IMG/VR virus record: IMGVR_UViG_3300007345_000121
Location: 1-34,867 of that record
From: a virus
Direction: 5' to 3' (one strand)
DNA length: 34,867 nt
Positions 362 through 34,775 of the stretch are shown piece by piece. Below the pieces are notes generated by a model. That model searched no databases, was not told the origin of the DNA, and worked only from the letters and a program-made list of their open reading frames with translations. Each line of letters opens with the position of its first letter. Position 1 is the stretch's first letter. The translations under genes were made by a program, and so were the position numbers.

Positions 362-372
362 TAGGATTCCTA
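362..372 (-). promoter_or_regulatory. TAGGNANNCTA element upstream of gene at 340
   Basis: Coding-strand sequence TAGGAATCCTA. The core ends 22 nt before the ATG at 340. It sits three bases from an oppositely oriented copy (375-385), as expected for a divergent promoter pair. Confidence 0.6.
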
Positions 373-374
373 CA

Positions 375-385
375 TAGGTATTCTA
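375..385 (+). promoter_or_regulatory. TAGGNANNCTA element upstream of plus-strand operon
   Basis: Plus-strand sequence TAGGTATTCTA. The core ends 21 nt before the ATG at 406. It is the only plus-oriented copy seen, and it precedes the only multi-gene plus-strand operon, so the element is directional. Confidence 0.65.
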
Positions 386-405
386 CGGCAGTTCAAGTAT
401 TTCCA

Positions 406-582
406 ATGGAGTTCGCCGCTCTCGCAGGCCTGTTGTTGTTCCTGTCATCTGAAGTCATTAGCTATTTGCCTATCCGTGAAAACGGTGTGCTTCAAGCAAT
501 CCTTGGCAGCCTCCAGAAAGCATTCCCCAAGCCCGACAAGGATGCGTTTATCAAGGAGGAAGAAGAGAAGGAAGAAGAGTGA
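406..582 (+). CDS. Small membrane protein, holin-like candidate
   Basis: 58 residues from the ATG at 406. The upstream in-frame TTG at 340 would place the regulatory element inside the gene, so it is rejected. The first ~22 residues (MEFAALAGLLLFLSSEVISY) form one hydrophobic segment, followed by a short linker and a very acidic C-terminus rich in Glu (residues 50-58). Small single-span proteins with charged tails are common in phage lysis modules, and similar short 'LLxSSEVIxxLP' proteins are known to me from cyanophages without a proven role. Its stop overlaps the GTG start of the next gene. Calling it a holin is an inference from topology only. Confidence 0.7.
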   Translation: MEFAALAGLLLFLSSEVISYLPIRENGVLQAILGSLQKAFPKPDKDAFIKEEEEKEEE

Positions 583-842
583 ACTGGCGAGCGATCGTCG
601 TAGATGCAATTAAAGGGCTTTGGGATAGAGGCATCCGAAACATGGATGTTTTCCTGAGGCCCCTTTATGATGCGTGGTTTGACGACTGGGTTGACTGGAA
701 AACACAACAAGCAATGGAAGAACTCGACAAGCAAATTGAAGAGATCCTTGAGGCAAGCGAAGACCTGGACTCTCCGGTGTATACTGAAGACGGAGAAGAG
801 ATCAGACTGACGGCACCTTGGTATGACAGAACTGACGATTAG
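579..842 (+). CDS. Hypothetical acidic protein
   Basis: 87 residues from a GTG at 579 that overlaps the preceding TGA (GTGA), with a purine-rich Shine-Dalgarno region (GGAGGAAGAAGAGAAGG) inside the end of the upstream gene. The sequence has a Trp-rich amphipathic N-terminal half (W3, W15, W33, W37, W40) and a helical Glu-rich stretch (QQAMEELDKQIEEILEASED), then an acidic end. No transmembrane segment and no family recognised. Middle gene of a translationally coupled three-gene unit. Confidence 0.7.
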   Translation: MNWRAIVVDAIKGLWDRGIRNMDVFLRPLYDAWFDDWVDWKTQQAMEELDKQIEEILEASEDLDSPVYTEDGEEIRLTAPWYDRTDD

Positions 843-1017
843 ACAAGCTTGCGATTTGCTTTACAGAGGAAAAAGTAATGTGCCGAATGCCGCCAGGATG
901 TGTGGCCTGCCCAAAGAAGAGCTGTTTAGAGTTTTCTCCGAATACGCAAAAGCCATCCCCATTGACGAGGATGACTGGCGTAGCGACGTCGAGCCGGGCT
1001 GGCCTTATATCACTTAA
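823..1017 (+). CDS. Small helix-turn-helix-like protein
   Basis: 64 residues from an ATG that overlaps the end of the preceding gene by 20 nt. The middle segment (about residues 7-41; DLLYRGKSNVPNAARMCGLP then EELFRVFSEYA) reads like a short helix-turn-helix with a 'NAARMCGLPKEEL' recognition turn, as in small phage DNA-binding proteins. The C-terminus is acidic. It ends three bases before the stop of a convergent minus-strand gene. A regulatory role is possible but inferred from the helical pattern alone. Confidence 0.65.
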   Translation: MTELTIRQACDLLYRGKSNVPNAARMCGLPKEELFRVFSEYAKAIPIDEDDWRSDVEPGWPYIT

Positions 1018-1020
1018 GGA

Positions 1021-1173
1021 TCACTTCTTGCCGTAAGGCTTCTTGGCGCCCTTCTTCGGAGCAGCTTTGCCGCCGAAGGGGGGCTTTTTGCCAGCGGCTT
1101 TGGGATCCTTCTTAGCATCCTTCCCTTTCATCTTAGCCAGGAAGGCAGGAGGCATTTTCTTTTTGGCGGCCAT
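1021..1173 (-). CDS. Lys-rich 50-residue basic protein
   Basis: ATG at 1171-1173, stop TGA at 1021-1023, 50 residues. The sequence is dominated by Lys, Ala, Pro and Gly (starts MAAKKKMPPAFLAKMKGKDA), consistent with a small DNA- or RNA-binding or capsid-internal protein. It has its own TAGGGATCCTA element 23 nt upstream, whose TAG is the stop of the preceding membrane-protein gene. It resembles the other Lys-rich proteins of this cluster (1613-1921 and 2143-2466) in composition. No enzymatic motif. Confidence 0.7.
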   Translation of the reverse strand: MAAKKKMPPAFLAKMKGKDAKKDPKAAGKKPPFGGKAAPKKGAKKPYGKK

Positions 1174-1195
1174 TGAAGTAAAGGCAAATACCCAC

Positions 1196-1206
1196 TAGGA
1201 TCCCTA
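1196..1206 (-). promoter_or_regulatory. TAGGNANNCTA element upstream of gene at 1173
   Basis: Coding-strand TAGGGATCCTA, core 23 nt before the ATG. The first three bases are the stop codon of the gene at 1204-1443. Confidence 0.6.
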
Positions 1207-1443
1207 AAAGAAGAGCACTGTAATAATCTTATACAAAGACGCTAGGCCGAATACCAGGCTGGCTCCAATGGTTGTCCACGATCGCGCCCTGACGCTATGG
1301 GGCGTAAGAAAAAACTCGCCGATCAGGTAAAGGGTAGCACCTACAAATACTTTGTCGAACATCAGCAAAACATAGCCCGACAGAAACAGGACATTTGCTA
1401 TGTCGCGCAAGTTGTCGGTATAGTCCTTATGGTATGGTTTCAT
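1204..1443 (-). CDS. Small integral membrane protein
   Basis: 79 residues. After a charged N-terminus (MKPYHKDYTDNLRD) there are two or three hydrophobic segments: about residues 15-33, 34-46 (GATLYLIGEFFL) and 58-78. The start ATG overlaps the stop of the upstream membrane-protein gene (ATGA), so the two are translationally coupled. Two adjacent small membrane proteins fit a holin/antiholin or other envelope function, but there is no family-specific motif and no endolysin in the window. Confidence 0.65.
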   Translation of the reverse strand: MKPYHKDYTDNLRDIANVLFLSGYVLLMFDKVFVGATLYLIGEFFLTPHSVRARSWTTIGASLVFGLASLYKIITVLFF

Positions 1444-1619
1444 TTAGGAGCCAGTGGCGTCATCAACGCCAGCAGAATCGCGACGTAGGTTTCCGCCGCC
1501 CTCTGAAAGATGACAGGATCTTTTGCCCTAAAACCCAGGAAAGTAAGATGGGAAACCATCAAGATGCCGAGCAGTGTCAGTACAGCGCCTTGACGGCTGG
1601 GCAGGCCAGGTTTCACCAT
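1440..1619 (-). CDS. Small membrane protein, 59 residues
   Basis: ATG at 1617-1619, TGA at 1440-1442. The start overlaps the 3' end of the basic-protein gene (stop at 1613-1615) and the stop overlaps the next ATG, so it sits in a coupled string of genes. Two hydrophobic stretches are visible: residues 10-30 (QGAVLTLLGILMVSHLTFLG) and 47-58 (TYVAILLALMTPLA). Topology would suit a small holin or antiholin paired with the 79-residue protein downstream. The gene is inferred from perfect fit between neighbours rather than from homology. Confidence 0.6.
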   Translation of the reverse strand: MVKPGLPSRQGAVLTLLGILMVSHLTFLGFRAKDPVIFQRAAETYVAILLALMTPLAPK

Positions 1620-1921
1620 TTTGCTCGGTCCGCCCAGTAAGCGGCTGACATTTTGCCCTTGGCGATGTTTTTGGCATGACGCGCCTTGAAGCTTGCACGC
1701 TTCTTCTTCATAGCGGCGGACTCGCCCTTCTTGGGCTTGCCAGCGGTTTTGGCGCCCTGTTCGCCAAAGCGAATAAGCTTGGTCTTGCCTCCTTCTTTTG
1801 CAAGTACCACATGACTCTTGGTGGGATGGCCAGGAGTGCGCTTTGGCTTGTTATAACCCGACAGGCCGTTCTTAGCGAGCCTTGGATCCTTTTTTGACCC
1901 CTTTGGTTTTCTTGCCGCCAT
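1613..1921 (-). CDS. Conserved basic phage protein (RFG.QG family)
   Basis: 102 residues, strongly basic. Recognisable features are GYNKPKRTPGHPTKSHVVLA (residues 22-41), KLIRFGEQG (48-56) and a C-terminal SFKARHAKNIAKGKMSAAYW block. I recognise this pattern from a widespread family of unknown function in cyanophages and other aquatic phages. It is probably a nucleic-acid-associated protein. The start at 1921 lies 22 nt downstream of an AAGACT core of the intergenic element. It is followed by the two coupled membrane-protein genes. Confidence 0.85.
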   Translation of the reverse strand: MAARKPKGSKKDPRLAKNGLSGYNKPKRTPGHPTKSHVVLAKEGGKTKLIRFGEQGAKTAGKPKKGESAAMKKKRASFKARHAKNIAKGKMSAAYWADRAKW

Positions 1922-1941
1922 TTGCCTTACTGGAAGTCTTT

Positions 1942-2055
1942 TTAGTCTTCCCAGTCATCTGAGCTGTCACGAGAGGGAGCGCCATTTTGCTTTACAAGTA
2001 AGAGGACAAGTATTAAAGAAAGGGCAGTCAGACCTCGTGCAAGGAGACTCTGCAT
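1942..2055 (-). CDS. 37-residue single-span membrane protein (overlapping frame)
   Basis: ATG at 2053-2055 and TAA at 1942-1944, read in a different frame from the Cys-rich gene at 1967-2146, which it overlaps by 89 nt. Residues 3-22 (LLARGLTALSLILVLLLVKQ) form one transmembrane helix, followed by a short acidic tail ending in DDWED. The stop lies inside the TAGG-type element for the next gene, as happens for several certain genes here, which favours it being real. It is short and has no recognised homologue in my knowledge. Confidence 0.4.
   Translation of the reverse strand: MQSLLARGLTALSLILVLLLVKQNGAPSRDSSDDWED
1943..1953 (-). promoter_or_regulatory. TAGGNANNCTA-type element upstream of gene at 1921
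   Basis: Coding-strand TGGGAAGACTA, core 22 nt before the ATG. The CTAA end provides the stop of the 37-residue frame. Confidence 0.5.
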
Positions 2056-2146
2056 GTCCGAGTAATTGGCAGCTTTGGGCCGCAGCAATATTCAGCTTTT
2101 CCTCAAGGCTGTCAAGGTAAGCGAGAACAGAGTTTACCGGGGTCAC
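1967..2146 (-). CDS. Small Cys-rich protein
   Basis: 59 residues from a GTG at 2144-2146 that overlaps the preceding TGA (GTGA). The N-terminal half is helical (VNSVLAYLDSLEEKLNIAAA). The C-terminal half holds five cysteines (C26, C36, C41, C47, C51) spaced C-x9-C-x4-C-x5-C-x3-C within HAESPCTRSDCPFFNTCPLT, consistent with a small metal-binding site. Translational coupling to the basic protein upstream supports the start. Function unknown. A zinc or iron-sulphur knuckle is an inference from spacing. Confidence 0.65.
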   Translation of the reverse strand: MTPVNSVLAYLDSLEEKLNIAAAQSCQLLGHAESPCTRSDCPFFNTCPLTCKAKWRSLS

Positions 2147-2466
2147 GATTTTCTTGGCCTGTAACCAGGCTTAGACTTCCTTGTTCCCTTACCATTCGCC
2201 AACCTTCCATTCTTGCCGTGTCCGTTTCTTGCTCGATTTTTTGAACTATTCTCCAATTTGAAGCCGCCGCCAGCGACATGGCTGACATCCGGACCACCCT
2301 TGCCCATAATGCCGCGAGCGCGGCGCTCTTTACCAAGTTCCGCCCGATACTTCTTGGCTTTACTGGTCGAGTTGCGCTTTTTGTCGTAGGCAAGTTTTTT
2401 CTTGTACGACTCAGGATTGCTCTTGTAGAAATCAGCGGTGCTCCGCTTTCTCTTTCTCTCAGCCAT
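2143..2466 (-). CDS. Conserved basic protein (SKNRARNGHGKNGR family)
   Basis: 107 residues from the ATG at 2464-2466. A longer in-frame version starting at 2556 would lie almost wholly inside the upstream gene. The sequence has YKSNPESYKKKLAYDKKRNS near the N-terminus, KKYRAELGKERRARGIMGKG in the middle and SSKNRARNGHGKNGR near the C-terminus. I recognise this arrangement from T4-like cyanophage and other aquatic-virus proteins of unknown role. The strongly basic composition suggests binding to packaged DNA. The start overlaps the stop of the coiled-coil membrane protein upstream by 8 nt. Confidence 0.8.
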   Translation of the reverse strand: MAERKRKRSTADFYKSNPESYKKKLAYDKKRNSTSKAKKYRAELGKERRARGIMGKGGPDVSHVAGGGFKLENSSKNRARNGHGKNGRLANGKGTRKSKPGYRPRKS

Positions 2467-2761
2467 TTTTGTAATCCTCGTATTTAGAAAGCCGGCCGCG
2501 AAGTTTTTGGATGTCTTCTGCTTGGTGGAATACGTGGTAGTCAAGCTTTTCTTCAAAACGAGCCAAGGTCTTGAAAAGTCGCTCCATATTCAGTTCAAAC
2601 TCTTCTTTGGTGAGATACTTTTCCGCTAACTTAAGTTCAAGTTTGTCGGTAGCACCTTCGGCCCTCAAGGCAATCTGAACCGCGTTTTCGGCTCTACGCC
2701 AAGTAAAGCCACCCCAGCCAAGAATGGCGGTCAATGCAAAAACGAGTACATACTCAGGCAT
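2459..2761 (-). CDS. Membrane-anchored coiled-coil protein
   Basis: 100 residues if started at the ATG at 2761 (MPEYVLVFALTAILGWGG), 107 if started at the ATG at 2782. I prefer 2761 because the TAGGTAGCCTA element then ends 24 nt upstream, as elsewhere, whereas 2782 leaves only 3 nt. Residues 4-20 form one transmembrane helix. The remainder is a long charged helix (YLTKEEFELNMERLFKTLAR, then EEKLDYHVFHQAEDIQKLRG) typical of a coiled coil. This resembles small phage membrane proteins with a cytoplasmic or periplasmic coiled coil, including spanin-like proteins, but no lipoprotein partner is visible. Confidence 0.75.
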   Translation of the reverse strand: MPEYVLVFALTAILGWGGFTWRRAENAVQIALRAEGATDKLELKLAEKYLTKEEFELNMERLFKTLARFEEKLDYHVFHQAEDIQKLRGRLSKYEDYKNG

Positions 2762-2784
2762 TAACAGAATCTTGACTGACATTG

Positions 2785-2795
2785 TAGGCTACCTA
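2785..2795 (-). promoter_or_regulatory. TAGGNANNCTA element upstream of gene at 2761
   Basis: Coding-strand TAGGTAGCCTA, a perfect match. Its TAG is the stop of the gene at 2793-2969. The core is 24 nt before the ATG at 2761. Confidence 0.6.
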
Positions 2796-2969
2796 GAGAT
2801 CGCTACCGTCAAGGTTCTTCTGTCCTGGTTCATAGCCAATTCCGCCAAGCCCTGTTACGGGATCATCAATTTCCAGCTCTGCTTGCTTCTTGGGAAAGCT
2901 CGCATCCACGTCTTGATCAATATTAACCCCATCAATGTAGCGAGGGCCAACCGAGTAAGTGATTTCCAT
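2793..2969 (-). CDS. Hypothetical 58-residue protein
   Basis: ATG at 2967-2969, TAG at 2793-2795. Acidic, starting MEITYSVGPRYIDGVNIDQD, with a Gly-rich C-terminal half (DDPVTGLGGIGYEPGQKN). No hydrophobic segment and no recognised family. Its own element (AAGGTACCCTA) lies 22 nt upstream inside a strong inverted repeat, and the stop codon is embedded in the next element. This tight fit between signals supports the gene despite its size. Confidence 0.65.
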   Translation of the reverse strand: MEITYSVGPRYIDGVNIDQDVDASFPKKQAELEIDDPVTGLGGIGYEPGQKNLDGSDL

Positions 2970-2974
2970 TAAAA

Positions 2975-2997
2975 TACCCCAGCATAATGCTAGGGTA
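2975..2997 (-). terminator. Inverted repeat next to start of 2969 gene; terminator-like or operator
   Basis: TACCCCAGCAT (2975-2985) and ATGCTAGGGTA (2987-2997) pair over 11 bp with one mismatch and a one-base centre. On the minus strand the hairpin is followed by TTTT and then immediately by the ATG at 2969. One arm contains most of the TAGG-type element. It could terminate transcription from the HeH gene upstream or bind a dimeric regulator. The short loop fits a DNA palindrome better than an RNA hairpin. Confidence 0.45.
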
Positions 2998-3001
2998 CCT
3001 T
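2991..3001 (-). promoter_or_regulatory. TAGGNANNCTA-type element upstream of gene at 2969
   Basis: Coding-strand AAGGTACCCTA, core 22 nt before the ATG. It overlaps the inverted repeat at 2975-2997. Confidence 0.5.
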
Positions 3002-3026
3002 TTGTTAATCAATACCGCTTAAGCGA

Positions 3027-3374
3027 TCAACCCTTAGCCTGGTAATCTTTGCAAATCTCTAAGATTTCAAATTTAGGCTGATTTGGCTTGAACTCAAGAC
3101 CGTGCTCTTCTGCGTATTCAATCAATTCGATTTTGGTCATGTCGTCAAGAGTCTCTCCGACTACTTCGACCGCAGTCTCGAAATCGAAAGCATCGCCACC
3201 GACTTCGACGGCCACCTCAGGCAGCTTCTTCTCGACCTTTGGAGGCTTGGGCAGCTCAGCGCCCTCTTCGACAAAACCTTGTTCCCGGAGTTCTCGTGCT
3301 TGAATGGTAAAGAAAGCTTCACGCCGCACCCCATCTTTCACGAAGTAGGTGGGCCTCTTACGTAGATGTGCCAT
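3027..3374 (-). CDS. Phage protein with C-terminal HeH/SAP-like domain
   Basis: 115 residues. The N-terminus (MAHLRKRPTYFVKDGVRREA) is followed by a Pro/Glu/Val-rich linker (about residues 40-70). The last ~40 residues (TKIELIEYAEEHGLEF, then PKFEILEICKDYQ) show the helix-extended loop-helix pattern of HeH/LEM or SAP-like domains. Such domains occur at the C-terminus of small head or connector proteins next to phage capsid genes. Its start codon directly follows the T-run of a terminator, and no TAGG element is seen, which is unlike its neighbours. Confidence 0.75.
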   Translation of the reverse strand: MAHLRKRPTYFVKDGVRREAFFTIQARELREQGFVEEGAELPKPPKVEKKLPEVAVEVGGDAFDFETAVEVVGETLDDMTKIELIEYAEEHGLEFKPNQPKFEILEICKDYQAKG

Positions 3375-3400
3375 AAAAAAAGGGGCCGTATAGACCCCTT
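3375..3400 (-). terminator. Rho-independent terminator downstream of HNH gene
   Basis: On the minus strand AAGGGG, a loop containing TCTATACGG, then CCCC and seven T. It lies between the HNH gene stop (3425) and the next ATG (3374), with the T-run abutting the ATG. Confidence 0.7.
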
Positions 3401-3424
3401 ATGATTCCGAATTAAGCTAGAGAT

Positions 3425-3916
3425 TTATCGGCGGTCTTCCTGGATCGCTTGCCAGGCCTCTTCTTCGGTGCGGAATGTACCCAGGTATTTTTTCCTACCT
3501 CTCCTTCCAGATCCTGGGACATGGTACTGGACCTGCCAGCGTCCAGAGCTTAACAAGGACACCCCAGGGTATCGAGACGTTCCCCCTCTCCATCGCTGGT
3601 TCTGAGCCTGAAGATAGCTATCGGCCAGTCGGAGATTGGATGCGCTATTGTCGCCTTTTTCTCTATTTTTGTGGTCTACGGTCAGGCAGGGGTTAGCCTG
3701 ATTTTCTAGGGCCCACACAACGCGATGGCATCTGTAATCCTTACCCTGTATGCGGATCTTCCAGTAGCCCTTCTGTCCGAGGGAGCCAGCCATCTGGCCA
3801 AGCATGCGCTTCTTATTGCTGGCAGGGGCTTTCTTCCAGCGCAGTCCGCTGCCAAGCTCGGGAGCCAATTCCAGGTGCTCATTAACCCAGGTGAGGGGGA
3901 TAGGGATGAAAGGCAT
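3425..3916 (-). CDS. HNH homing endonuclease with AP2-like DNA-binding domain
   Basis: 163 residues. The HNH_3-type core is visible as YRCHRVVWAL (H64), LTVDHKNREKGDNSASNLR (D81-H82, N90/N94). The C-terminal part SRYPGVSLLSSGRWQVQY followed by RKKYLGTFRTEEEAW (about 115-158) is an AP2-like DNA-binding domain. Free-standing HNH/AP2 proteins cut DNA at specific sites to spread themselves. The gene is bracketed by terminators (3375-3400 and 3939-3960) and lacks the TAGG element that precedes native genes, which fits insertion as a selfish element into the capsid cluster. Confidence 0.93.
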   Translation of the reverse strand: MPFIPIPLTWVNEHLELAPELGSGLRWKKAPASNKKRMLGQMAGSLGQKGYWKIRIQGKDYRCHRVVWALENQANPCLTVDHKNREKGDNSASNLRLADSYLQAQNQRWRGGTSRYPGVSLLSSGRWQVQYHVPGSGRRGRKKYLGTFRTEEEAWQAIQEDRR

Positions 3917-3938
3917 TGTCGTTGATGTATGGGGCCAG

Positions 3939-4385: not shown

Positions 4386-4396
4386 TAGTATGCCGA
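4386..4396 (-). promoter_or_regulatory. TAGGNANNCTA-type element, long-leader gene at 4324
   Basis: Coding-strand TCGGCATACTA directly after the stop of the 133-residue gene. It is 62 nt from the start codon, so here the element is not tied to the ribosome site. This favours a transcription signal. Confidence 0.55.
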
Positions 4397-4822: not shown

Positions 4823-4833
4823 TAGGTTGCCTA
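4823..4833 (-). promoter_or_regulatory. TAGGNANNCTA element upstream of gene at 4798
   Basis: Coding-strand TAGGCAACCTA, whose TAG is the stop of the 103-residue gene. Core 25 nt before the ATG. Confidence 0.6.
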
Positions 4834-5178: not shown

Positions 5179-5337
5179 TCAAAGCTCTACAATGTTTACT
5201 ACCTCGTCTGCATGATGACGAGCGAAGACTTCTTCAACGGCCCAGCCAGGCCCGCAGTGAGTATGAATTTCGATACTTGTTTGCACCCCGTCGCGGATAT
5301 ACTCAACACGATAAGATTTTTTAGTGGAGTGTGCCAT
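5179..5337 (-). CDS. Hypothetical 52-residue protein
   Basis: ATG at 5335-5337, TGA at 5179-5181. The sequence starts MAHSTKKSYRVEYIRDGVQT and continues with a two-strand, one-helix pattern (SIEIHTHCGPGWAVEEVFAR). It resembles small phage proteins with a YRVxYxRDGV...AEEVxxRH.A pattern that I know only as hypothetical. It has a good upstream element (GTGGAATACTA, 19 nt) and lies just after the capsid-gene terminator, so it forms its own transcription unit. Confidence 0.7.
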   Translation of the reverse strand: MAHSTKKSYRVEYIRDGVQTSIEIHTHCGPGWAVEEVFARHHADEVVNIVEL

Positions 5338-5355: not shown

Positions 5356-5366
5356 TAGTATTCCAC
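5356..5366 (-). promoter_or_regulatory. TAGGNANNCTA-type element upstream of gene at 5337
   Basis: Coding-strand GTGGAATACTA, core 19 nt before the ATG. It starts 7 bases downstream of the capsid terminator's T-run, so transcription must restart here. Confidence 0.6.
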
Positions 5367-5372: not shown

Positions 5373-5395
5373 AAAAAAAGCCCCCTTTCGGGGGC
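5373..5395 (-). terminator. Rho-independent terminator of the major capsid gene
   Basis: On the minus strand GCCCCC-GAAA-GGGGGC followed by seven T, 23 nt after the capsid stop codon. Confidence 0.9.
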
Positions 5396-5417
5396 CGGGT
5401 AACGTGGCTAATTGTTA

Positions 5418-6314: not shown

Positions 6315-6440
6315 GATGATCTCCTAAAGAAATGAATGAACGAAGATTGGGTGTTAGCGCCTTTGCTATTGTCACAACAGCTTCAGCAGTCGCACCCTTT
6401 CAGTCCACTCTATCTCAGAGTTTCCCTACGGGGCTGCTAT

Positions 6441-6454
6441 TAGTATAATACCTA
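6441..6454 (-). promoter_or_regulatory. Element variant at head of capsid transcript
   Basis: Coding-strand TAGGTATTATACTA, with three extra bases between GG and CTA. It is 127 nt before the capsid ATG and just after the scaffold terminator. It contains TATTAT and TATACT, both good -10 hexamers. Confidence 0.6.
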
Positions 6455-6460: not shown

Positions 6461-6482
6461 AAAAAAGGGGCCGAAGCCCCTA
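6461..6482 (-). terminator. Rho-independent terminator of the scaffold gene
   Basis: On the minus strand GGGGC-TTCG-GCCCC then six T. The TTCG tetraloop makes it very stable. It lies 7 nt beyond the scaffold stop. Confidence 0.9.
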
Positions 6483-7262: not shown

Positions 7263-7273
7263 TAGTATACCTA
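7263..7273 (-). promoter_or_regulatory. TAGGNANNCTA element upstream of scaffold gene
   Basis: Coding-strand TAGGTATACTA, a perfect match directly after the stop of the 184-residue gene. Core 37 nt before the ATG, the extra length being the leader hairpin. Confidence 0.65.
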
Positions 7274-8524: not shown

Positions 8525-8535
8525 TAGGATACCTA
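8525..8535 (-). promoter_or_regulatory. TAGGNANNCTA element upstream of gene at 8505
   Basis: Coding-strand TAGGTATCCTA, extended to a dyad GACTAG-GTATC-CTAGTC. Its TAG is the stop of the class I fibre upstream. Core 20 nt before the ATG. Confidence 0.65.
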
Positions 8536-10451: not shown

Positions 10452-11621
10452 TTAGGATTCCAGCTCCCTGATGCGCGACTCCAGATGACTGACTTGCTGA
10501 GAAAGCTCCTGGATCGCGTTGACCAAAATAGGAAGCAAGGAGTCAGAGCGAAGGCGAAGTTTTTCTGGAGTTTCGTTATCAACAACGACCGGATTTTCCT
10601 CCCCTTCGATTTTAAGGATGTCCTGAGCCTTGAAGCCATAGCGCACTGGTCCGTGGGCTTCTTCGGAATCCCTGTTCTTCCGGAACTGATAACTAACTGG
10701 CTTGAGAGCATTAACAAAGGCTAAACCGTGATCAACGTAGCCAAAGTTTGTCTTGTCTCGTTCGTCGGAAACAGCCGTCCAGGCAACTTGAATGTACGCA
10801 TTGGTAACAGCGGTGCTACCCATGACGATACGATTGTCAGTATTGGCAGCAAAAACGGGATTCCATGTTCCAGTGGCGTCTCTGCCGCCGATGCAGATAT
10901 TGCCGTCACCACTTGACCAGCCATTCTGCCCCCCGGAGGGATCGTGCCCAGCGCTCTCACCGATGAAAGTATTGTAACTCCCTGAGGCAAGCCTTCCGCC
11001 GGCGTTGTAGCCAATTATGGTGTTCTTCTCTCCCGTGGTTGCAACAATTGCAGCCTTTGATCCGACTACAGTGTTCTGAGTCCCAAGAGATGCGTTGGCG
11101 GCATTTAGCGCATTGTAACCGATGACTACGCAGTCAGCCCTGTTTGTAGTCAAGGCCATCGCGCCGTTGCCGATGACTACGTTTTGATTGCCGCCGGTGT
11201 TAAGCTCACTGGCCTGATAACCGATAGAGATGCAATCATCCTGTGTTTGATTATCTTGATTCGCGTGGTAACCAATGCCAATATTCCTTGCACCGGTAGT
11301 AACCGCATTGTTTGCATTTACGCCAATCTCAAGGTTGTCGTTGGCGACGCTACTAGGAACCCAGTTGGCGCCATCGTAAGCCAAGAGACTAGAGATTCCA
11401 GGGACGGCTGTAGTTGTGTCAACGTCCGTCAGATCGTCGATAACTGAAACTGATGTTCCGATCCCTGCAAGAACTAAGACACCGCCCTCTTTTACGTAGA
11501 GCCTGTTCTCGTCGGTAGAGTAACAAATCTCGCCTTCGTAAAGATCTCCAACGCTTGCATTCAAATCAGCGATAGCGCCTCTCGCAATACGGACCGGTAC
11601 GCGATTCTGAGGAGTAGCCAT
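10452..11621 (-). CDS. Tail fibre, class II, with YadA-like head repeats and S74 chaperone domain
   Basis: 389 residues. The class II N-terminus (NRVPVRIARG...EGEICYSTDENRLYVKEGG) is followed by one DDLTDVDTTTAVPG repeat, then a run of 'NxxIGYxA' beta-roll repeats (about 100-265, e.g. NVVIGNGAMALTTNRADCVV) as in trimeric autotransporter heads. The C-terminal 105 residues are a Peptidase_S74 intramolecular chaperone: it begins SDERDKTNFGYVDHGLAFVN (S285), then YGFKAQDI and a terminal coiled coil (QELSQQVSHLESRIREL). Such domains help trimerise the fibre and then cleave themselves off before the Ser, leaving about 284 residues. Confidence 0.92.
   Translation of the reverse strand: MATPQNRVPVRIARGAIADLNASVGDLYEGEICYSTDENRLYVKEGGVLVLAGIGTSVSVIDDLTDVDTTTAVPGISSLLAYDGANWVPSSVANDNLEIGVNANNAVTTGARNIGIGYHANQDNQTQDDCISIGYQASELNTGGNQNVVIGNGAMALTTNRADCVVIGYNALNAANASLGTQNTVVGSKAAIVATTGEKNTIIGYNAGGRLASGSYNTFIGESAGHDPSGGQNGWSSGDGNICIGGRDATGTWNPVFAANTDNRIVMGSTAVTNAYIQVAWTAVSDERDKTNFGYVDHGLAFVNALKPVSYQFRKNRDSEEAHGPVRYGFKAQDILKIEGEENPVVVDNETPEKLRLRSDSLLPILVNAIQELSQQVSHLESRIRELES
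10453..10463 (-). promoter_or_regulatory. TAGGNANNCTA-type element upstream of gene at 10428
   Basis: Coding-strand CTGGAATCCTA. The following A completes the TAA stop of the S74 fibre. Core 25 nt before the ATG, with a run of nine T between. Confidence 0.55.
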
Positions 11622-11640: not shown

Positions 11641-11651
11641 TAGTTTACCGT
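11641..11651 (-). promoter_or_regulatory. TAGGNANNCTA-type element upstream of gene at 11621
   Basis: Coding-strand ACGGTAAACTA, core 20 nt before the ATG. The downstream flank CTAACTCAGCT is nearly identical to that of the 12451 site, as expected if this intergene was duplicated. Confidence 0.6.
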
Positions 11652-12470: not shown

Positions 12471-12481
12471 TAGTTTTCCGT
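12471..12481 (-). promoter_or_regulatory. TAGGNANNCTA-type element upstream of gene at 12451
   Basis: Coding-strand ACGGAAAACTA, directly after the stop of the class III fibre. Core 20 nt before the ATG. Confidence 0.6.
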
Positions 12482-14225: not shown

Positions 14226-14236
14226 TAGTATTCCTA
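14226..14236 (-). promoter_or_regulatory. TAGGNANNCTA element upstream of gene at 14204
   Basis: Coding-strand TAGGAATACTA within a perfect dyad GGCTAG-GAATA-CTAGCC. Its TAG is the stop of the class II fibre upstream. Core 22 nt before the GTG. Confidence 0.65.
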
Positions 14237-15960: not shown

Positions 15961-15971
15961 TAGGATGCCTA
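15961..15971 (-). promoter_or_regulatory. TAGGNANNCTA element upstream of gene at 15940
   Basis: Coding-strand TAGGCATCCTA. Its TAG is the stop of the 1455-residue fibre. The following AGCCTAGCTT resembles the flank of the 14204 site. Confidence 0.65.
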
Positions 15972-20354: not shown

Positions 20355-22808
20355 TTAGTTTTCCATACCTCTACCTGAAATAGTGCCAGGCTCAGTTCCA
20401 TACTTGGCGCCTGGTTGCTTGGTTTCGCCGTCTTCGTGCTTAAGACAGAGCCATAGCATTCCCTCAAATTCATTGGTCTCGTAAGGCTCCTCCGCTTCCG
20501 TCGTTGTTACACCCATTTGAGCAAGGGTTTCAGGAGTTGCGATTGGGCACACTATCGTTCCATCGTAATCATACACTCCATTGTAGCAATTTTGAACCCA
20601 TTTTTGAAACTCAGGCGTTTTCTCTTCCACGTTCTCTGGCTTAACCCAGTATCCCATATCATAGATGTAACCATCTGTGATCCTGTTATCGATGGCAAGA
20701 AAACTTTTGTATGCGCCAGCGTAGTTGCCGTCTTCGTCCTGTGCAATTCTCATTTGGTAACGCTGAAAATCCCATAGCCATTGCCTTACCGGATCATAGT
20801 GGTATTGTTCGTGATAAACCCTATCCTCTAGTGGGATACTAAAGGTTGGACCAGGATTCACAAAAAAACCAACGCCATCCGCTACGCGAGGATCGTCGTC
20901 CCACGCATATTCGAGCAAGGCCTCTGTACTTGCATCCTCGAATACAACGTCGCAAATAGTGCCTATACCATTTACGTCGGCCCTATAGTTGCCGTCTGGA
21001 CAGGTTGAAGTTGGAACATAATAAAACGTTTCGTACTCATACGTTTGATCAACTGTATTAACGCGCATTCTTGTAATACTCAGGAGAGGTTTGGTTCCAC
21101 TATCCCTGGGCTGCTTGTCTAATTGTATGCTTTCATCGTAAAAAAGACCGGGCACAGTGTCGGTCAAGTAGCGGTTTAAACCTTCACTGCCGGGGCCAAG
21201 TTGACCCTTGTAGTCCGGGTTTCCTGCACTAGTTCCCGACACGTCAAGCCAAGTGGCGTTATCTTTCGCTTGCAAAATGCCGCTCAAGTAATACCCCCAC
21301 CATTTGCCATTAAGGCTTGAGCAAAACTGCCATCTATCTCCCCCTACCACGCCATCGTAGGGCAACGTAAAGGGAAACTCTGAAGGAGGTAACGGGCGCT
21401 CAGTCCCGGTTCTTGGCTCTTTGGTTATCCAGGCACGCTTTCCGGCCTCTGTAGCAATCAACGAATCAGGGTTAACTTTATCGCTTCCCCAATGATCCAA
21501 GAAGTCATCCTCAGTCGGGAACATGATATCAGGAGGAGAGGCCTGTCCCATCATGAACCCGCTATTGTCGCTGGTAATTCCGGCCGGGCCGTGACCGGGC
21601 TGCGATCCAAAACATTTCCATTTAACATTAAACGGGCTGAAGGGACCGATAGGGCTGTTCCCGTCCTCGTTTACCAAAGTCGCTTGACCTCTAAGCACAG
21701 CAGGGCATCCCGTCAGGATAGCTCCCACGTAGGGCTGTCCGTAGCCTTCGTATTCCTGTGGAGCCCAACCAAAGGCGCCACCATAACAGCCCTCCTCGAA
21801 ATCAAGTTCTTTCACGCATTTGCGTTGAGGATGAATGTGAATCCAATCTCCTCCTTTGTAGCGATTCTCTCCGTTGGCACCGTTAGCATTATTCTTTGCA
21901 TCCTGAGGAGAACTACCAAGAGAAGGCCAGTCAAAAATAAGAGATCCATTATTTTGCTCGGCTGCAACTACAGCACCATAACCATAGCATTGCATTGCAA
22001 AAAAATGAATATCAGAAGTACCTTCTGGTTGAACCCAGCGAATATTCCATTCATCGGACGGCTGACCGTCTGGTCCCGAAGGCTCCTGATTCAAAGACAA
22101 CATGCTGTTGTCGGGAGAAAAGTAAATTTTAAATCTTTCGTCATGCTGCTTTACAAGCCTTGCTGTATTCAAATATGCCATCGAATGAGTATCGTCGGCA
22201 AAGGAGCCTCCGTATCCGTAGAATCCATGCTGAGGCCAAAAATACCAGCCGGTCGTATCATTGGTTGGCGCTGGCCAGCTTACAGCCCAGAAGTTGCCGG
22301 AAAGCATTTGTTGTGTTACTTGAGGGTAAGGCTCCTCCCACCACTTGTTAGCAGGTCTCTCCTGTCGAGCCGTAATTCGAATTTCTCCAGAAGGACCACT
22401 AATGATCCAGTCCTTGTACCAAGAGAAAAAGCCCCGACTTTTGATGCCAAACATTGTGCACGGAGGCAGGAACTCATCAGGGATTGGCAGCTCCGTGAAA
22501 TCCTCGGAGACATCAAATTCGGGATTTTTCTTTTTCTTTTCTATTGTTTCGTTAAGCGTAGGCGTGAGGTAGATCATCTTGCCATCAAACCAACACCTCG
22601 ATCCGATAGGAGAGTTTCGGGCTCCTCCATTAACCCTGGCGACCACAGTCCTTCCGCTGCTTTGCAAGCGGCATTTACCCCTGCCTCTATCGATACCTAG
22701 CCAGGTTCCTTCCTGGAACTTTTCAAGCCGGCTGTAAAACTCAATAGCCTTTGCCTCTAGCCACTCGTCAACTTTTTTCAGAAGCTCGCTATTGACAAGT
22801 GATTCCAC
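20355..22808 (-). CDS. Large tail-tip/baseplate protein
   Basis: 817 residues, unrecognised family. A charged helical N-terminus (1-35, MESLVNSELLKKVDEWLEAK) is followed by a small barrel-like part (about 36-82, GRGKCRLQSSGRTVVARVNG...SRCWFDGKMIY) that resembles the adjacent 87-residue protein. The rest is rich in Trp, Tyr, Pro and Gly with many beta strands (e.g. WYFWPQHGFYGYGGSF) and little repetition. Its start overlaps the stop of the preceding small gene. Position between hub and fibres suggests a tail-tip or fibre-attachment protein. Confidence 0.75.
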   Translation of the reverse strand: MESLVNSELLKKVDEWLEAKAIEFYSRLEKFQEGTWLGIDRGRGKCRLQSSGRTVVARVNGGARNSPIGSRCWFDGKMIYLTPTLNETIEKKKKNPEFDVSEDFTELPIPDEFLPPCTMFGIKSRGFFSWYKDWIISGPSGEIRITARQERPANKWWEEPYPQVTQQMLSGNFWAVSWPAPTNDTTGWYFWPQHGFYGYGGSFADDTHSMAYLNTARLVKQHDERFKIYFSPDNSMLSLNQEPSGPDGQPSDEWNIRWVQPEGTSDIHFFAMQCYGYGAVVAAEQNNGSLIFDWPSLGSSPQDAKNNANGANGENRYKGGDWIHIHPQRKCVKELDFEEGCYGGAFGWAPQEYEGYGQPYVGAILTGCPAVLRGQATLVNEDGNSPIGPFSPFNVKWKCFGSQPGHGPAGITSDNSGFMMGQASPPDIMFPTEDDFLDHWGSDKVNPDSLIATEAGKRAWITKEPRTGTERPLPPSEFPFTLPYDGVVGGDRWQFCSSLNGKWWGYYLSGILQAKDNATWLDVSGTSAGNPDYKGQLGPGSEGLNRYLTDTVPGLFYDESIQLDKQPRDSGTKPLLSITRMRVNTVDQTYEYETFYYVPTSTCPDGNYRADVNGIGTICDVVFEDASTEALLEYAWDDDPRVADGVGFFVNPGPTFSIPLEDRVYHEQYHYDPVRQWLWDFQRYQMRIAQDEDGNYAGAYKSFLAIDNRITDGYIYDMGYWVKPENVEEKTPEFQKWVQNCYNGVYDYDGTIVCPIATPETLAQMGVTTTEAEEPYETNEFEGMLWLCLKHEDGETKQPGAKYGTEPGTISGRGMEN
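20356..20366 (-). promoter_or_regulatory. TAGGNANNCTA-type element upstream of giant fibre gene
   Basis: Coding-strand ATGGAAAACTA, core 20 nt before the ATG at 20336. It contains the last codons and the TAA stop of the tail-tip gene (Met-Glu-Asn-stop). Confidence 0.55.
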
Positions 22809-23071
22809 TACCAGGTTCCGACAAACTTCCCGTTAGAATACCGGACAAGAATTTGAGAACCTTCAGGAACAGCTCTTGTAGCGATAATGCCACTCAGCTG
22901 GACCTCCTTGCCCTCTACTCTGGCGTAGTGGTTGGCATTTTTTGTGCCGCTCCATGTTGCCGTCCTTGTTTCTGATACGTATTTAAGCTGCCTTCTGTCT
23001 GCCTGATAGGCAGTGTTTTCTGAGCTTTTTTGAGCAAGATACTCAACAATAGACTGGTTAGCGCTGGCCAT
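22808..23071 (-). CDS. Small tail-tip accessory protein
   Basis: 87 residues. A helical N-terminal half (SIVEYLAQKSSENTAYQADR) precedes a small beta barrel-like half (HYARVEGKEVQLSGIIATRA then GSQILVRYSNGKFVGTW). The C-terminal half resembles a segment near the N-terminus of the 817-residue protein. Start and stop overlap both neighbours by a few bases, so the three genes 23730-20355 form one coupled unit. Function unknown. A tail-tip role is inferred from position. Confidence 0.7.
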   Translation of the reverse strand: MASANQSIVEYLAQKSSENTAYQADRRQLKYVSETRTATWSGTKNANHYARVEGKEVQLSGIIATRAVPEGSQILVRYSNGKFVGTW

Positions 23072-23749: not shown

Positions 23750-23760
23750 TAGTCTTCCTA
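23750..23760 (-). promoter_or_regulatory. TAGGNANNCTA element upstream of gene at 23730
   Basis: Coding-strand TAGGAAGACTA. Its TAG is the stop of the hub gene. Core 20 nt before the ATG. Confidence 0.6.
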
Positions 23761-30255: not shown

Positions 30256-30266
30256 TAGGTTTCCAT
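30256..30266 (-). promoter_or_regulatory. TAGGNANNCTA-type element upstream of tape measure gene
   Basis: Coding-strand ATGGAAACCTA, core 21 nt before the ATG at 30235. It begins as the terminator's T-run ends, so the tape-measure transcript would restart here. Confidence 0.6.
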
Positions 30267-30290
30267 AAAAAAGCCCCCAAATAGGGGGCT
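30267..30290 (-). terminator. Rho-independent terminator of the major tail protein transcript
   Basis: On the minus strand AGCCCCC-TATT-TGGGGGCT then six T, about 40 nt after the TAA at 30331. It covers both the short and the extended tail protein frames. Confidence 0.9.
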
Positions 30291-31247: not shown

Positions 31248-31253
31248 ATTTCT

Positions 31254-31696: not shown

Positions 31697-31715
31697 AAGA
31701 CTGCCGAGACTGCTT

Positions 31716-31726
31716 TAGTGTTCCTG
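31716..31726 (-). promoter_or_regulatory. TAGGNANNCTA-type element upstream of gene at 31696
   Basis: Coding-strand CAGGAACACTA, core 20 nt before the GTG. Confidence 0.55.
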
Positions 31727-31811
31727 CCTTGGGCATAATAGGTCAGCAACGTAAAACGCCTATGGCCTGCACCTGTTTTGCCTACAGTGTGAGCGTTGCC
31801 TGGGTCAGACT

Positions 31812-32231
31812 ATGAGCAACGTAGAGAAAGCACCTCTTCACGAGCGTCCATCCGACTACGTTTACGCCATGACAGCTTTAAATAGTGCGCAAGCTCGTCG
31901 CCAGTGGCGGGCAGGAATTCGTGCAGCGTGGAATGATCGCTGCGCTTATTGCGGTCAGCCACCTATCGACGAAGAGTCCCTTACAATCGATCATGTAAAA
32001 CCTCGCTGCAAAGGAGGAGAGGACCGGACATCCAATGTAATCCCGGCCTGTCGCTCTTGCAATCAAGCCAAGGGTTCAGAAGAATGGGTTTCCTGGTACA
32101 GCCGCCAAGCCTTCTATAGTATCTACGCAGAAGCTCGCATTAGAAAATGGATAGACAAAGGTACTGTCGATAACTACGAAGATACTACAGAAGATTCGGA
32201 ATGGCTTGATCAGGTTATCTCAGGATCCTGA
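31812..32231 (+). CDS. HNH endonuclease with two CxxC zinc motifs (inserted on opposite strand)
   Basis: 139 residues. The HNH core is complete: CAYCGQPP (C44, C47), LTIDHVKPRCKGGEDRTSNV (D60-H61, N75), and PACRSCNQAKGS (C80, C83, K87). It is the only plus-strand gene in the right half of the window, lies between chaperone and tail terminator genes, and overlaps the last 17 nt of the chaperone frame. It lacks the TAGG element. A weak promoter-like GGGCATAAT occurs about 70 nt upstream. Typical of a free-standing homing endonuclease that invaded a spacer. Confidence 0.93.
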   Translation: MSNVEKAPLHERPSDYVYAMTALNSAQARRQWRAGIRAAWNDRCAYCGQPPIDEESLTIDHVKPRCKGGEDRTSNVIPACRSCNQAKGSEEWVSWYSRQAFYSIYAEARIRKWIDKGTVDNYEDTTEDSEWLDQVISGS

Positions 32232-32841
32232 GCTGGAGGCCCTCCTCGGCTACGACCTTGGTATTAACTGGCGGCATCTGAATAAGTACCTCGCCAGAAC
32301 CGTCGGTAGCAGTCATGACGAGCCTCATCTCTGAGGCCTCTTCTTTTGCTATCAACAGGCCTTCTAGCATGCCTTCACCAGCAGTTCTTGGCGCTAGAAT
32401 GATCGCATTTTCATGCATCAGCGCCAAAAGGCTTGGGGGCGTGCTGTTTGCTGTTTTCATCAATCCCTGATAGCAGAACAGCGCCCACGGCGGAAGCTGA
32501 TTGAGTCTGATCAGTTCTGCCATAGCAGCACCAAAACGTCCCTCTGCCATTCCGTCCGAATCCAAACGCTTATAAAGGTAAAAAGCTTCAAGAGGAATCG
32601 GTTTCTTTTGTTTTTTCTGGTCTCTGTTAATATTGGAAAGAGTAGCGGTAAGGAGGGCAACCGGACGCTCGCTTAGATGCAATTCATCCAACTGCATCGT
32701 TTTAGCCTTTCTATAGGCTGTGAAAACATACTCAGAAGGAAGTTCCCAGAAGTTCTCGAGATGAAACTCGGGGTCTCCTGGGAACCATCTTTTCAGAAAC
32801 CAGTATGCTTCCTCAAAATCAAACGAAGCTGCCCTTAGGAC
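32215..32841 (-). CDS. Tail assembly chaperone, -1 frameshift extension (gpG-T like)
   Basis: This frame is open from the slippery site (GTC at 32839-32841) to the stop at 32215, 208 codons. It has no good independent start near its 5' end. The first ATG is at 32697, 48 codons in, with no ribosome site. The sequence begins VLRAASFDFEEAYWFLKRWF and contains NFWELPSEYVFTAYRKAKTM. Joined to the upstream frame through a -1 shift it gives a ~397-residue fusion (189 + 208), the layout of lambda gpG-T, which helps wrap the tape measure before tube assembly. Its 3' end is overlapped by the opposite-strand HNH gene. Confidence 0.8.
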   Translation of the reverse strand, partial: VLRAASFDFEEAYWFLKRWFPGDPEFHLENFWELPSEYVFTAYRKAKTMQLDELHLSERPVALLTATLSNINRDQKKQKKPIPLEAFYLYKRLDSDGMAEGRFGAAMAELIRLNQLPPWALFCYQGLMKTANSTPPSLLALMHENAIILAPRTAGEGMLEGLLIAKEEASEMRLVMTATDGSGEVLIQMPPVNTKVVAEEGLQLRILR

Positions 32842-33407
32842 TTTTTTTCCAGGTCTCCGACCGGATCGTCTTCCCCTGATTTTTCGATAACCTCAATCGC
32901 GTCCTCGTTTTGCTCCCGGAGACGCTCGTCGGAGCGGTTTTCTTCGTCCGTATATAGGTCAGCAAGTGCGTCGATAATATCGGGATGCAAATCAAGAACC
33001 TGATCAAAGTCAATTTTATCGTCTACTCGATAGATTAGCATGCAAAATGCCGTCACCAAGCGGCGACGCTCTTGCGTGGTAATCATTTCAGACATCAAGC
33101 TATCAATTTCTTCCTTGAATTGATCGGCTACTTCTTTACTTTCTTTGCTGAAGCTTCCAGTAATAACTTCCTGGAGAAGTGCATACGCTTTTTCTTGATC
33201 CAGCTTTTTTTCAAGAGCGACCTGACGGACAAGACTCAGCATTTGACGGGTAACGTTGTCAGAGGTCATCTGAGTCTGAAGAAAAGCCTTCTCACCCGCA
33301 CTGAGGTACCCACGACGTTCAATGGAAATATATCCGGCATCCTCGGAGCCTACAAGCTCTCTAATTGGCTTCCGACGCGGCTGGATTACAAAAGGAAGCT
33401 TTGCCAT
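32835..33407 (-). CDS. Tail assembly chaperone (gpG like)
   Basis: 190 residues, helical and acidic. It starts MAKLPFVIQPRRKPIRELVG; the middle is helical (TRQMLSLVRQVALEKKLDQE, and LVTAFCMLIYRVDDKIDFDQ) and the C-terminus is highly charged. It ends four codons after GAA AAA AAG TCC TAA. The A AAA AAG heptamer at its end and the long -1 frame beyond identify it as the short product of a frameshifted chaperone pair. Unlike lambda, it lies upstream of the tail terminator and major tail genes rather than just before the tape measure. It has a perfect element (ATGGTATACTA) 20 nt upstream and a TAAGG ribosome site. Confidence 0.85.
   Translation of the reverse strand: MAKLPFVIQPRRKPIRELVGSEDAGYISIERRGYLSAGEKAFLQTQMTSDNVTRQMLSLVRQVALEKKLDQEKAYALLQEVITGSFSKESKEVADQFKEEIDSLMSEMITTQERRRLVTAFCMLIYRVDDKIDFDQVLDLHPDIIDALADLYTDEENRSDERLREQNEDAIEVIEKSGEDDPVGDLEKKS
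32841..32847 (-). other. Programmed -1 frameshift slippery site A AAA AAG
   Basis: In the zero frame the codons are GAA AAA AAG TCC TAA, so the heptamer A AAA AAG is in the correct register for a -1 slip, two codons before the stop. A Shine-Dalgarno-like GGAG lies about 7 nt upstream (32855-32858), and a possible GCTTC/GAAGC stem lies about 10 nt downstream. Both are known stimulators. Confidence 0.85.
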
Positions 33408-33426
33408 AATAACCTTAAAAGCGAGC

Positions 33427-33437
33427 TAGTATACCAT
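33427..33437 (-). promoter_or_regulatory. TAGGNANNCTA-type element upstream of chaperone gene
   Basis: Coding-strand ATGGTATACTA, core 20 nt before the ATG. It reads TGGTATACT, which also matches an extended -10 promoter. Confidence 0.65.
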
Positions 33438-33976
33438 CACTCACCCTGACCAAGTCGGGACCTAAGATACGCAATAGCTGCCTGCCTTGCTATCTCAGCG
33501 CTTGGCATTGCCTGCAGCGCTTTGGTGACCCATGGTCTACCTGGTAGGTAAACCGGCCTGGCATGCGGGTTGCCGTATGGCTGAATGTAACCGCCTTCGT
33601 GAGTCAAGGCTGCGTACGGAGAACTGTAATTGATGCTAATACTGCCATCAGGCGCAAGGTTAATAGTAAGGGACCTCATTAAGGCGCCAGTTTTAACCGC
33701 TCCTGCCGACCTAATAGAGCTGTCCAGATAAGCTCTAACGGCATCGGCCAAGGCTCGCGCAATGGCCTGCTCCATGCCTCTATGTATAGAATCAAAATCT
33801 GCGTTGACCTGAGTTGGCTCTAGTTCAATCTGAGGAGCGACAGGCAAAGCACCAGGTAGGCCCGTAAACCCGTCAAACTCGACCTCTATCGTATCTTCTT
33901 TTCTGAGTTTAGCATCTACGGATTCGATTTCCCTGAAAAGATCCTCGAAATTATGGGTAACACCAACTTTAGCCAT
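33437..33976 (-). CDS. HK97-gp10-like tail completion protein
   Basis: 179 residues. The C-terminal half has the family pattern VKTGALMRSLTINLAPDGSI then SINYSSPYAALTHEGGYIQP and LPGRPWVTKALQ (about 95-160): a helix ending in the KTGxLxxS turn, a beta hairpin, and the final RPWxxxA segment. Members of this family help complete or join the tail. The start overlaps the stop of the upstream gene (ATG within TGATG-type junction), so both are translated together. Order with the terminator candidate fits head-to-tail connection. Confidence 0.88.
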   Translation of the reverse strand: MAKVGVTHNFEDLFREIESVDAKLRKEDTIEVEFDGFTGLPGALPVAPQIELEPTQVNADFDSIHRGMEQAIARALADAVRAYLDSSIRSAGAVKTGALMRSLTINLAPDGSISINYSSPYAALTHEGGYIQPYGNPHARPVYLPGRPWVTKALQAMPSAEIARQAAIAYLRSRLGQGE

Positions 33977-34482
33977 CAGTTCTGAACCTCGCCGGCGGTC
34001 AGTTGAAGTTGTACGCCACCAATCTCGCTATAAATGATCTCGTCAATACCCTGGCCACCAAAGATACCAGTAGAACGCTGAACCCTGGAAAGACTTTCTC
34101 TTTCGTCACCAAAGAAGAATCGAACCTCCATGTTTGGCATCAAAGCATCTAGTTGTCCCGTTACTGTGCTGAATACAACCAGGCTTTCATCGTCGACGGC
34201 AGGATCCCAATCAGCTGCTACCACGGCGTACTCAAGTGCATAACCACGGTAGTAGAACTGGTCACCACTGGCGCCTGGCATCATTTCACCATCCAGCTGG
34301 CTCTCTAGGGGGATCCTCTTAGAGCCTGATGAGACCCCCGTATATTGGATTCTTTTCATGAAGCAGCGGATAAGGTAGGTATCCCCTGCAGCGGCCACCA
34401 GACGGCCATTGACGACGCTTACAGCGCCTTCTGCGACCGCGATAACCCGAGAGTTGATATAGGGCGCTAGAGGAGAGGCCAT
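33976..34482 (-). CDS. Head completion/connector protein candidate
   Basis: 168 residues, mostly beta with few charged residues (MASPLAPYINSRVIAVAEGA; YLIRCFMKRIQYTGVSSGSK; YYRGYALEYAVVAADWDPAV). The C-terminal region contains RVQRSTGIFGGQGIDEII, sharing RSTGIF with the N-termini of the two decoration-like proteins at 3989-4798. Position immediately before the HK97-gp10-like gene is where head-closure (stopper) proteins lie. It has an element 22 nt upstream of the ATG. Assigned by position and composition. Confidence 0.7.
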   Translation of the reverse strand: MASPLAPYINSRVIAVAEGAVSVVNGRLVAAAGDTYLIRCFMKRIQYTGVSSGSKRIPLESQLDGEMMPGASGDQFYYRGYALEYAVVAADWDPAVDDESLVVFSTVTGQLDALMPNMEVRFFFGDERESLSRVQRSTGIFGGQGIDEIIYSEIGGVQLQLTAGEVQN

Positions 34483-34503
34483 TTACCCAGGTTCATGTCC
34501 TTC

Positions 34504-34514
34504 TAGTCTGCCAG
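34504..34514 (-). promoter_or_regulatory. TAGGNANNCTA-type element upstream of gene at 34482
   Basis: Coding-strand CTGGCAGACTA, core 22 nt before the ATG. Confidence 0.5.
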
Positions 34515-34526
34515 CGCCGTTAGCTT

Positions 34527-34539
34527 CCGGCTACGCCGG
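34527..34539 (-). repeat. GC-rich inverted repeat after zinc-ribbon gene
   Basis: CCGGC-TAC-GCCGG, a perfect 5-bp stem, lies in a GC-rich patch (34520-34556) also containing GAGCGCAGCGAACGAGCG on the minus strand. It has no T-run. It may be a transcript-end structure or a REP-like insertion. Confidence 0.4.
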
Positions 34540-34556
34540 TCGCTCGTTCGCTGCGC

Positions 34557-34742
34557 TCACTCCTTGAGTTTCAATCCACGGCATTTTGCGCAGGACTGAA
34601 TTTCACCATTAAGATGCTTAGCAAAAACGGCATTCATCTTACGAAATGCCTGGCAGCCATGACACCAGACATCAACAAGTTCTTGTTTGCCAAATTCTGC
34701 GAGTGTTTTACCTAGATCACCATCGATTTCAGGGTGGTTCAT
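34557..34742 (-). CDS. Small zinc-ribbon protein (start uncertain)
   Basis: 61 residues from the ATG at 34742. Four cysteines in two CxxC pairs (C27, C30, C51, C54; WCHGC and SCAKC) mark a zinc ribbon. The N-terminus MNHPEIDGDLGKTLAEFGKQ is helical. The frame stays open upstream to the window edge (with a TTG at 34775), so this could also be the C-terminus of a larger protein. I prefer 34742 because a TTGGTATACTG element sits 23 nt before it. It may be a regulator or structural zinc protein; function unknown. Confidence 0.6.
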   Translation of the reverse strand: MNHPEIDGDLGKTLAEFGKQELVDVWCHGCQAFRKMNAVFAKHLNGEIQSCAKCRGLKLKE

Positions 34743-34764
34743 GGTTTTCTCGTATAAGTCCACC

Positions 34765-34775
34765 CAGTATACCAA
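34765..34775 (-). promoter_or_regulatory. TAGG-type element upstream of gene at 34742
   Basis: Coding-strand TTGGTATACTG, core 23 nt before the ATG. The last base differs from consensus, and the upstream frame is open, so this is the least secure site listed. Confidence 0.4.

Follow-up and report, generated by a model that had tools for sequence, protein, structure and literature searches.

The late genes of the S-CBS2/S-CRES/P-SS2-type cyanosiphoviruses are very probably served by a promoter of extremely simple design, the short element GGNANNCTA, copies of which precede most of the virion genes in the viral DNA fragment that we analyze here. This fragment, the 34,867 bases of IMG/VR record IMGVR_UViG_3300007345_000121 (hereafter the window), carries the virion-gene module of a siphovirus, with its genes on the minus strand nearly throughout. 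Its nearest kin are the Synechococcus phages S-CBS2 and S-CRES1-3; the Prochlorococcus phage P-SS2 is farther off. From comparisons among these genomes we conclude with considerable confidence that the element is a late promoter reduced to its -10 region and read by a SigF/SigB-like phage sigma factor (family phrog_36098) that the relatives encode next to terL. No earlier description of the motif was found in the PubMed Central subset, outside which most subscription papers lie.

A search of the MEME type, proposed in a first-pass annotation of the window, was run as unseeded expectation maximization and recovered one directional motif, GGNANNCTA, in both the window and its relatives. Over the 75 nt ahead of each gene called in the window it took the form.aGG.At.CTA, with a log-likelihood ratio (LLR) of 96 as compared with 36-44 in dinucleotide shuffles. 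Separate unseeded runs gave ..GG.A.cCTA for S-CBS2 and ..GG.AtACTA for S-CRES3, and runs on structural genes only gave ..GG.A..CTA for S-CRES2 and GGAA.gCT for P-SS2. In IMG/VR relatives, 335 non-redundant regions upstream of genes gave the motif an LLR of 775, versus 66 after shuffling. The motif also recurs in contig G007, in two contigs, about 100 kb long, of the P-SS2 type and in a phage contig of the metagenome-assembled genome UBA4457. This last contig (DGOV01000074.1), labelled Proteobacteria bacterium UBA4457, has the late motif as well as the sigma gene linked to terL and is probably a cyanophage contig binned under the wrong organism. Gene starts came from a simple caller and were cross-checked against the annotated starts of S-CRES3; the loci share descent, and redundancy was filtered by shared words only.

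The first-pass annotation had named, as the outcome contrary to its proposal, a motif equally common inside genes or in the wrong orientation, and the counts are quite different. Among 998 non-redundant gene starts, the forward core stood in the expected interval at 319, where 15 would be expected from its density within genes, while its reverse complement was found there at 22 and its mirror image at 21. A genome-wide count of the whole pattern with one mismatch allowed (35 matches versus 22 expected) is too weak to judge by; the signal resides in position and orientation, not in loose genome-wide counts. It is also distributed very unevenly among gene classes, since late genes (structural, packaging and lysis) bear the motif far more often than early ones (odds ratio 7.5, p 1e-16; four phages, significant in each). 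Every tested relative that carries the terL-linked sigma factor is enriched in the motif, whereas the cyanosiphoviruses without this factor have it at 0 of 43 (S-CBS1), 0 of 57 (S-CBS4) and 2 of 51 (KBS-S-2A) starts.

Within the window, the copies described in the first-pass annotation are largely as it had reported them. All 21 of the starts that it listed have GGNANNCT on the gene's own strand, with the core ending 19-25 nt from the start codon, and the more distant copy, 62 nt before 4324, is present too. The plus-strand operon at 406 has its plus-oriented copy, and the element is indeed missing before both HNH genes (3916, minus strand; 31812, plus strand) and before genes whose starts overlap the preceding stop. 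The capsid gene (6314) does have a copy 127 nt away; however, it is the variant TAGGTATTATA, in which A replaces C at -8, so that the C at position 5 of the -10-like core, once described as invariant, is only nearly so. In relatives, the equivalent position is occupied by GGTATTCTA, GGCATACTA or GGCATAATA. Copies beyond those listed precede 7226, 2146, 22808 and 1443 (Table 1).

The anatomy of the element was determined from 286 non-redundant copies. With its invariant A set at -11, the consensus reads G-14 G-13 N A-11 N N C-8 T-7 A-6. T occurs at -16 in 59% of copies and A at -6 in 91%; position -12 admits every base except G, and position -9 is A or C. The core holds about 2 bits per position in this set, whose members were picked by the core pattern, and 1.6-1.9 bits per position in the unseeded search. 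In the P-SS2-like phages GGNANNCT is kept, A is preferred at -12 and position -6 is relaxed. The lack of a visible -35 element, noted at the outset, was borne out: positions -30 to -40 each carry at most 0.03 bit, and the arrangement of a host sigma-70 promoter (a TTGACA-like -35 located 16-18 nt upstream of TATAAT) is not found. Downstream, an initiator-like Y-R-R lies 5-7 nt past the T, with purines at 6-7 nt, in agreement with the starts that had been predicted 6-8 nt downstream. The distance from core to start codon has a sharp onset at 20 nt and a tail that ends at about 32. Transcription would begin at the purine 6-7 nt downstream of the T and produce very short leaders, mostly without a Shine-Dalgarno sequence. 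The predicted leaders of motif-led genes are about 14 nt or more, and Shine-Dalgarno-like sequences occur in 13% of these genes versus 32% of the others, which raises the question of how such messages are efficiently translated.

In 38 of the 286 copies an intrinsic terminator lies directly upstream (0.7 in shuffles), as it does in the window at 5337 and 30235, and divergent gene pairs, such as 340 and 406, have one copy facing each way. It is because of these terminators and divergent pairs, together with the late-gene bias, the downstream purines and the co-occurrence with a sigma factor, that we read the element as a promoter. The first-pass annotation had left open the choice between a late promoter and an RNA processing site; the first of these is well supported and the second is disfavored. 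An endonuclease that cut read-through mRNA at GGNANNCTA before each gene would explain the fixed short distance to the start codons, and an RNase III-like protein is annotated in the S-CRES phages. Nonetheless, such cleavage is very improbable given that the element often directly follows a terminator, serves divergent genes, is succeeded by a sequence suited to an initiator, has no structure beyond its column preferences and tracks a sigma factor in its presence. Still harder to credit is an operator bound by a dimer, whether repressor or activator, an idea suggested by several near-perfect palindromic copies (TAGGNNNCCTA). The motif is asymmetric, its A-11 and A-6 need no partner, and before genes the forward cores outnumber reverse-oriented ones about 15-fold. 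Moreover, the dyads to which the first-pass annotation had drawn attention lose their meaning here, as symmetric positions are complementary no more often than independent columns predict; the palindromic copies follow from the column preferences for TAGG and CCTA.

If the element is a promoter, its reader must be sought among the available sigma factors. The relatives encode two, a phrog_351 protein among the early genes and the phrog_36098 protein adjoining terL. The terL-linked protein resembles SigF, SigB and FliA in regions 2-3 (closest solved structures 8x6g_H, SigF 1l0o_C and FliA 6pmi), and its top cellular matches are mostly proteins of Nocardioides, Kribbella and Streptomyces. Sigma70_r2 was matched in 41 of 41 of the relatives' proteins and Sigma70_r4 (region 4) in none of the 41, absence from a match list not being proof. 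The C-terminal model had no sigma-4 match, and the whole model aligns loosely there with full sigma factors. AlphaFold predicts regions 2 and 3, followed by a segment of three helices that matches nothing convincingly. Most likely, the element would be read by host RNA polymerase carrying this factor, whose gene the window's phage would then possess outside the fragment. At 38 of 42 sigma loci in the relatives the motif stands at the head of the terS-terL-sigma operon, which implies self-amplification. The core stands directly before the sigma gene in 11 of the 42 (e.g., L098, L101 and L117), mostly as the hybrid CTGGTAGACT, which fits the late motif and an extended -10 alike. This copy may serve to trigger expression of the late sigma gene early on; the factor would first be switched on in this manner and would subsequently amplify itself through the motif-led operon.

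Some observations weigh against this reading. There is no sigma gene in the window, a fragment, and the four motif-bearing genomes that were checked all encode the phrog_351 sigma as well, so the motif's reader is assigned by correlation. In G004-G006, whose sigma factors are 58-67% identical, the core has forward:reverse counts of 9:0, 6:1 and 10:1, yet the unseeded search misses it, perhaps because these fragments hold mostly early genes. Where lineages are divergent, de novo searches of the sequence flanking the sigma gene recovered no motif either, as these flanks are mostly early genes; in longer pieces of four such contigs, G004-G006 among them, the core was enriched, but unseeded recovery failed in three. 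Finally, that transcription starts at the element is something we infer from computation.

The promoter might have another reader, either the RpoD-like phrog_351 sigma encoded among the early genes or a sigma factor of the host. In favor of this are the presence of phrog_351 in all four genomes checked and a pattern found upstream of early genes, TGnTAnaCT, which shares A-11, C-8 and T-7 with the element. We nevertheless consider such a reader unlikely. S-CBS1 and KBS-S-2A carry phrog_351 and lack the motif, and the phrog_351 proteins of P-SS2 and S-CBS2 are only 24% identical despite an unchanged motif core, while the terL-linked sigma is far more conserved between these two phages. The host's own sigma factors are disfavored by the other Synechococcus phages, which are without the motif. 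The TGnTAnaCT pattern itself came from unseeded searches of the early regions of S-CBS2 and S-CRES3; it is a tentative second class, extended -10-like and with weak statistics. When the genes lacking the core were searched without a seed, the result was a mixture of terminators and a -10-like element, with no clean early promoter. A T7-type RNA polymerase was also considered as the reader and rejected, PF00940 being absent in four relatives and found in the positive control, P-SSP7.

The terL-linked sigma has a further peculiarity at its C-terminal end, the sequence QxSLF. The strict form, Q.[SDNA]LF, terminates 41 of 56 open reading frames and a looser form 47 of 56, and the stretch preceding it is poorly conserved. 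Among 1380 other proteins the tag is present in just 3, and one of these comes from the sigma gene of S-CBS2 itself, as a frameshifted fragment. A frameshift in that gene (L010:16832-17567) shortens the annotated product to 206 aa and leaves the tail, which ends in QGSLF, in a different frame; either the sequence is in error or the truncation is genuine in the isolate. QL(S/D)LF is the consensus for binding to the bacterial clamp (PMC9690074). No DnaN (PF00712) was found in four phage genomes, T4 gp45, of a different family, not having been searched for, and the four encode neither PolA nor PolIII alpha; the host clamp is therefore the natural partner. The tag may tie late expression to the host's DNA-copying machinery. 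We raise tentatively, with a belief slightly short of evenly balanced, the fuller possibility of replication-coupled late transcription that arose independently of T4, in which a sigma factor lacking region 4 would act at a -10-only promoter while tethered by QxSLF to the host DnaN clamp on replicating phage DNA. The tag is absent in P-SS2, L145-L147 and L153-L156, so it is dispensable in some promoter-bearing members. In the same PubMed Central subset, which most subscription papers lie outside, no earlier account of a clamp-tagged sigma in these phages was found.

The features of the window are collected in Table 1. Among them, the leader of the capsid message is of separate interest. In about 30 relatives, 10 of its 17 base pairs are changed on both sides, with a covariation score of 0.525 versus 0.286 when shuffled. 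At gathering thresholds Rfam has no family in the window, and the capsid leader is unmatched; it seems to be a structured leader, so far undescribed, at the 5' end of a phage capsid message.

Table 1. Predicted features of the window; distances run from the core to the start codon
Feature	Positions	Strand	Remarks
Late promoter core GGAATCCT	363..370	-	22 nt before start 340
Late promoter core GGTATTCT	377..384	+	21 nt before start 406; divergent partner of 363-370 copy, 65-nt intergenic region
Late promoter core	1197..1204	-	23 nt before start 1173
Possible late promoter core GGAAACCT, weaker	1487..1494	-	43 nt before start 1443
Late promoter core	1944..1951	-	22 nt before start 1921
Late promoter core GGAAGTCT	2173..2180	-	26 nt before start 2146 (GTG)
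Late promoter core	2786..2793	-	24 nt before start 2761
Late promoter core	2992..2999	-	22 nt before start 2969
Late promoter core GGCATACT	4387..4394	-	62 nt before start 4324; longer leader with Shine-Dalgarno
Late promoter core	4824..4831	-	25 nt before start 4798
Late promoter core GGAATACT	5357..5364	-	19 nt before start 5337; directly after intrinsic terminator
Intrinsic terminator	5379..5396	-	directly upstream of 5357-5364 promoter
Conserved, apparently structured 5' leader of capsid mRNA	6315..6440	-	three helices, two with compensatory changes
Variant late promoter TAGGTATTATA (A at -8), major capsid gene	6444..6454	-	
Intrinsic terminator	6466..6481	-	directly upstream of capsid promoter
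Late promoter core GGTATACT	7264..7271	-	37 nt before start 7226 (scaffold protein)
Late promoter core	8526..8533	-	20 nt before start 8505
Late promoter core	10454..10461	-	25 nt before start 10428
Late promoter core	11642..11649	-	20 nt before start 11621 (tail fibre)
Late promoter core	12472..12479	-	20 nt before start 12451
Late promoter core	14227..14234	-	22 nt before start 14204
Late promoter core	15962..15969	-	21 nt before start 15940
Late promoter core	20357..20364	-	20 nt before start 20336
Possible late promoter core GGTATTCT, weaker	22835..22842	-	26 nt before start 22808; inside upstream gene
Late promoter core	23751..23758	-	20 nt before start 23730
Late promoter core GGAAACCT	30257..30264	-	21 nt before start 30235 (tape measure); directly after intrinsic terminator
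Intrinsic terminator	30273..30289	-	directly upstream of 30257-30264 promoter
Late promoter core	31717..31724	-	20 nt before start 31696
Late promoter core GGTATACT	33428..33435	-	20 nt before start 33407
Late promoter core	34505..34512	-	22 nt before start 34482
Late promoter core GGTATACT	34766..34773	-	23 nt before start 34742

These results propose an explicit target sequence for the group 3 sigma factor that was noticed in P-SS2 in 2009 (PMC2784084), and the late regulon of Synechococcus and Prochlorococcus siphoviruses would become readable from their genomes and from metagenomes. Were the tether to the clamp to prove true, there would be a second and unrelated case, one employing the host's clamp, and the coupling of late genes to replication would appear to be a more general viral strategy. 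The P-SS2 factor (ORF 003) belongs to the same protein family as the terL-linked sigma; in the accessible part of that study, only sigma-70 promoters were searched for, and a special regulon was predicted for ORF 003 with no target sequence named (PMC2784084).

The late promoters of T4, with their proteins gp55, gp33 and gp45, offer a close parallel, for they too consist of a -10-like element with no -35 and serve late genes, and gp55 has a region-2 homologue with extra segments, a divergent linker, a C-terminal clamp-binding epitope and no region 4 (PMC2988020, PMC7892883). The systems differ in that the promoter sequence is another one, the sigma factor here is clearly SigF/SigB-like with a region 3, and its tag has the bacterial QxSLF form and not the T4 type. 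Furthermore, no phage clamp of the DnaN type or DNA polymerase A/III is found here, so that the host clamp would serve, and P-SS2 and a few relatives have no tag. The gp33 protein is poorly conserved in sequence. The middle/late promoters of phiEco32 likewise have a single element (tAATGTAtA), with a start 6-8 bp downstream much as is predicted here, and a phage sigma, gp36, which is without region 4, drives the late genes; however, that promoter sequence is unrelated, the accessible part of the source describes no clamp-binding tag, and an inhibitor, gp79, is also present (PMC8948821). Cellular group 3 sigma factors of the SigF/SigB type share the sequence of regions 2-3, but here there is no -35 in the promoters and no recognizable region 4. 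Late promoters reduced to a -10 element and read by a phage sigma are a known kind of system, to which the element would belong.

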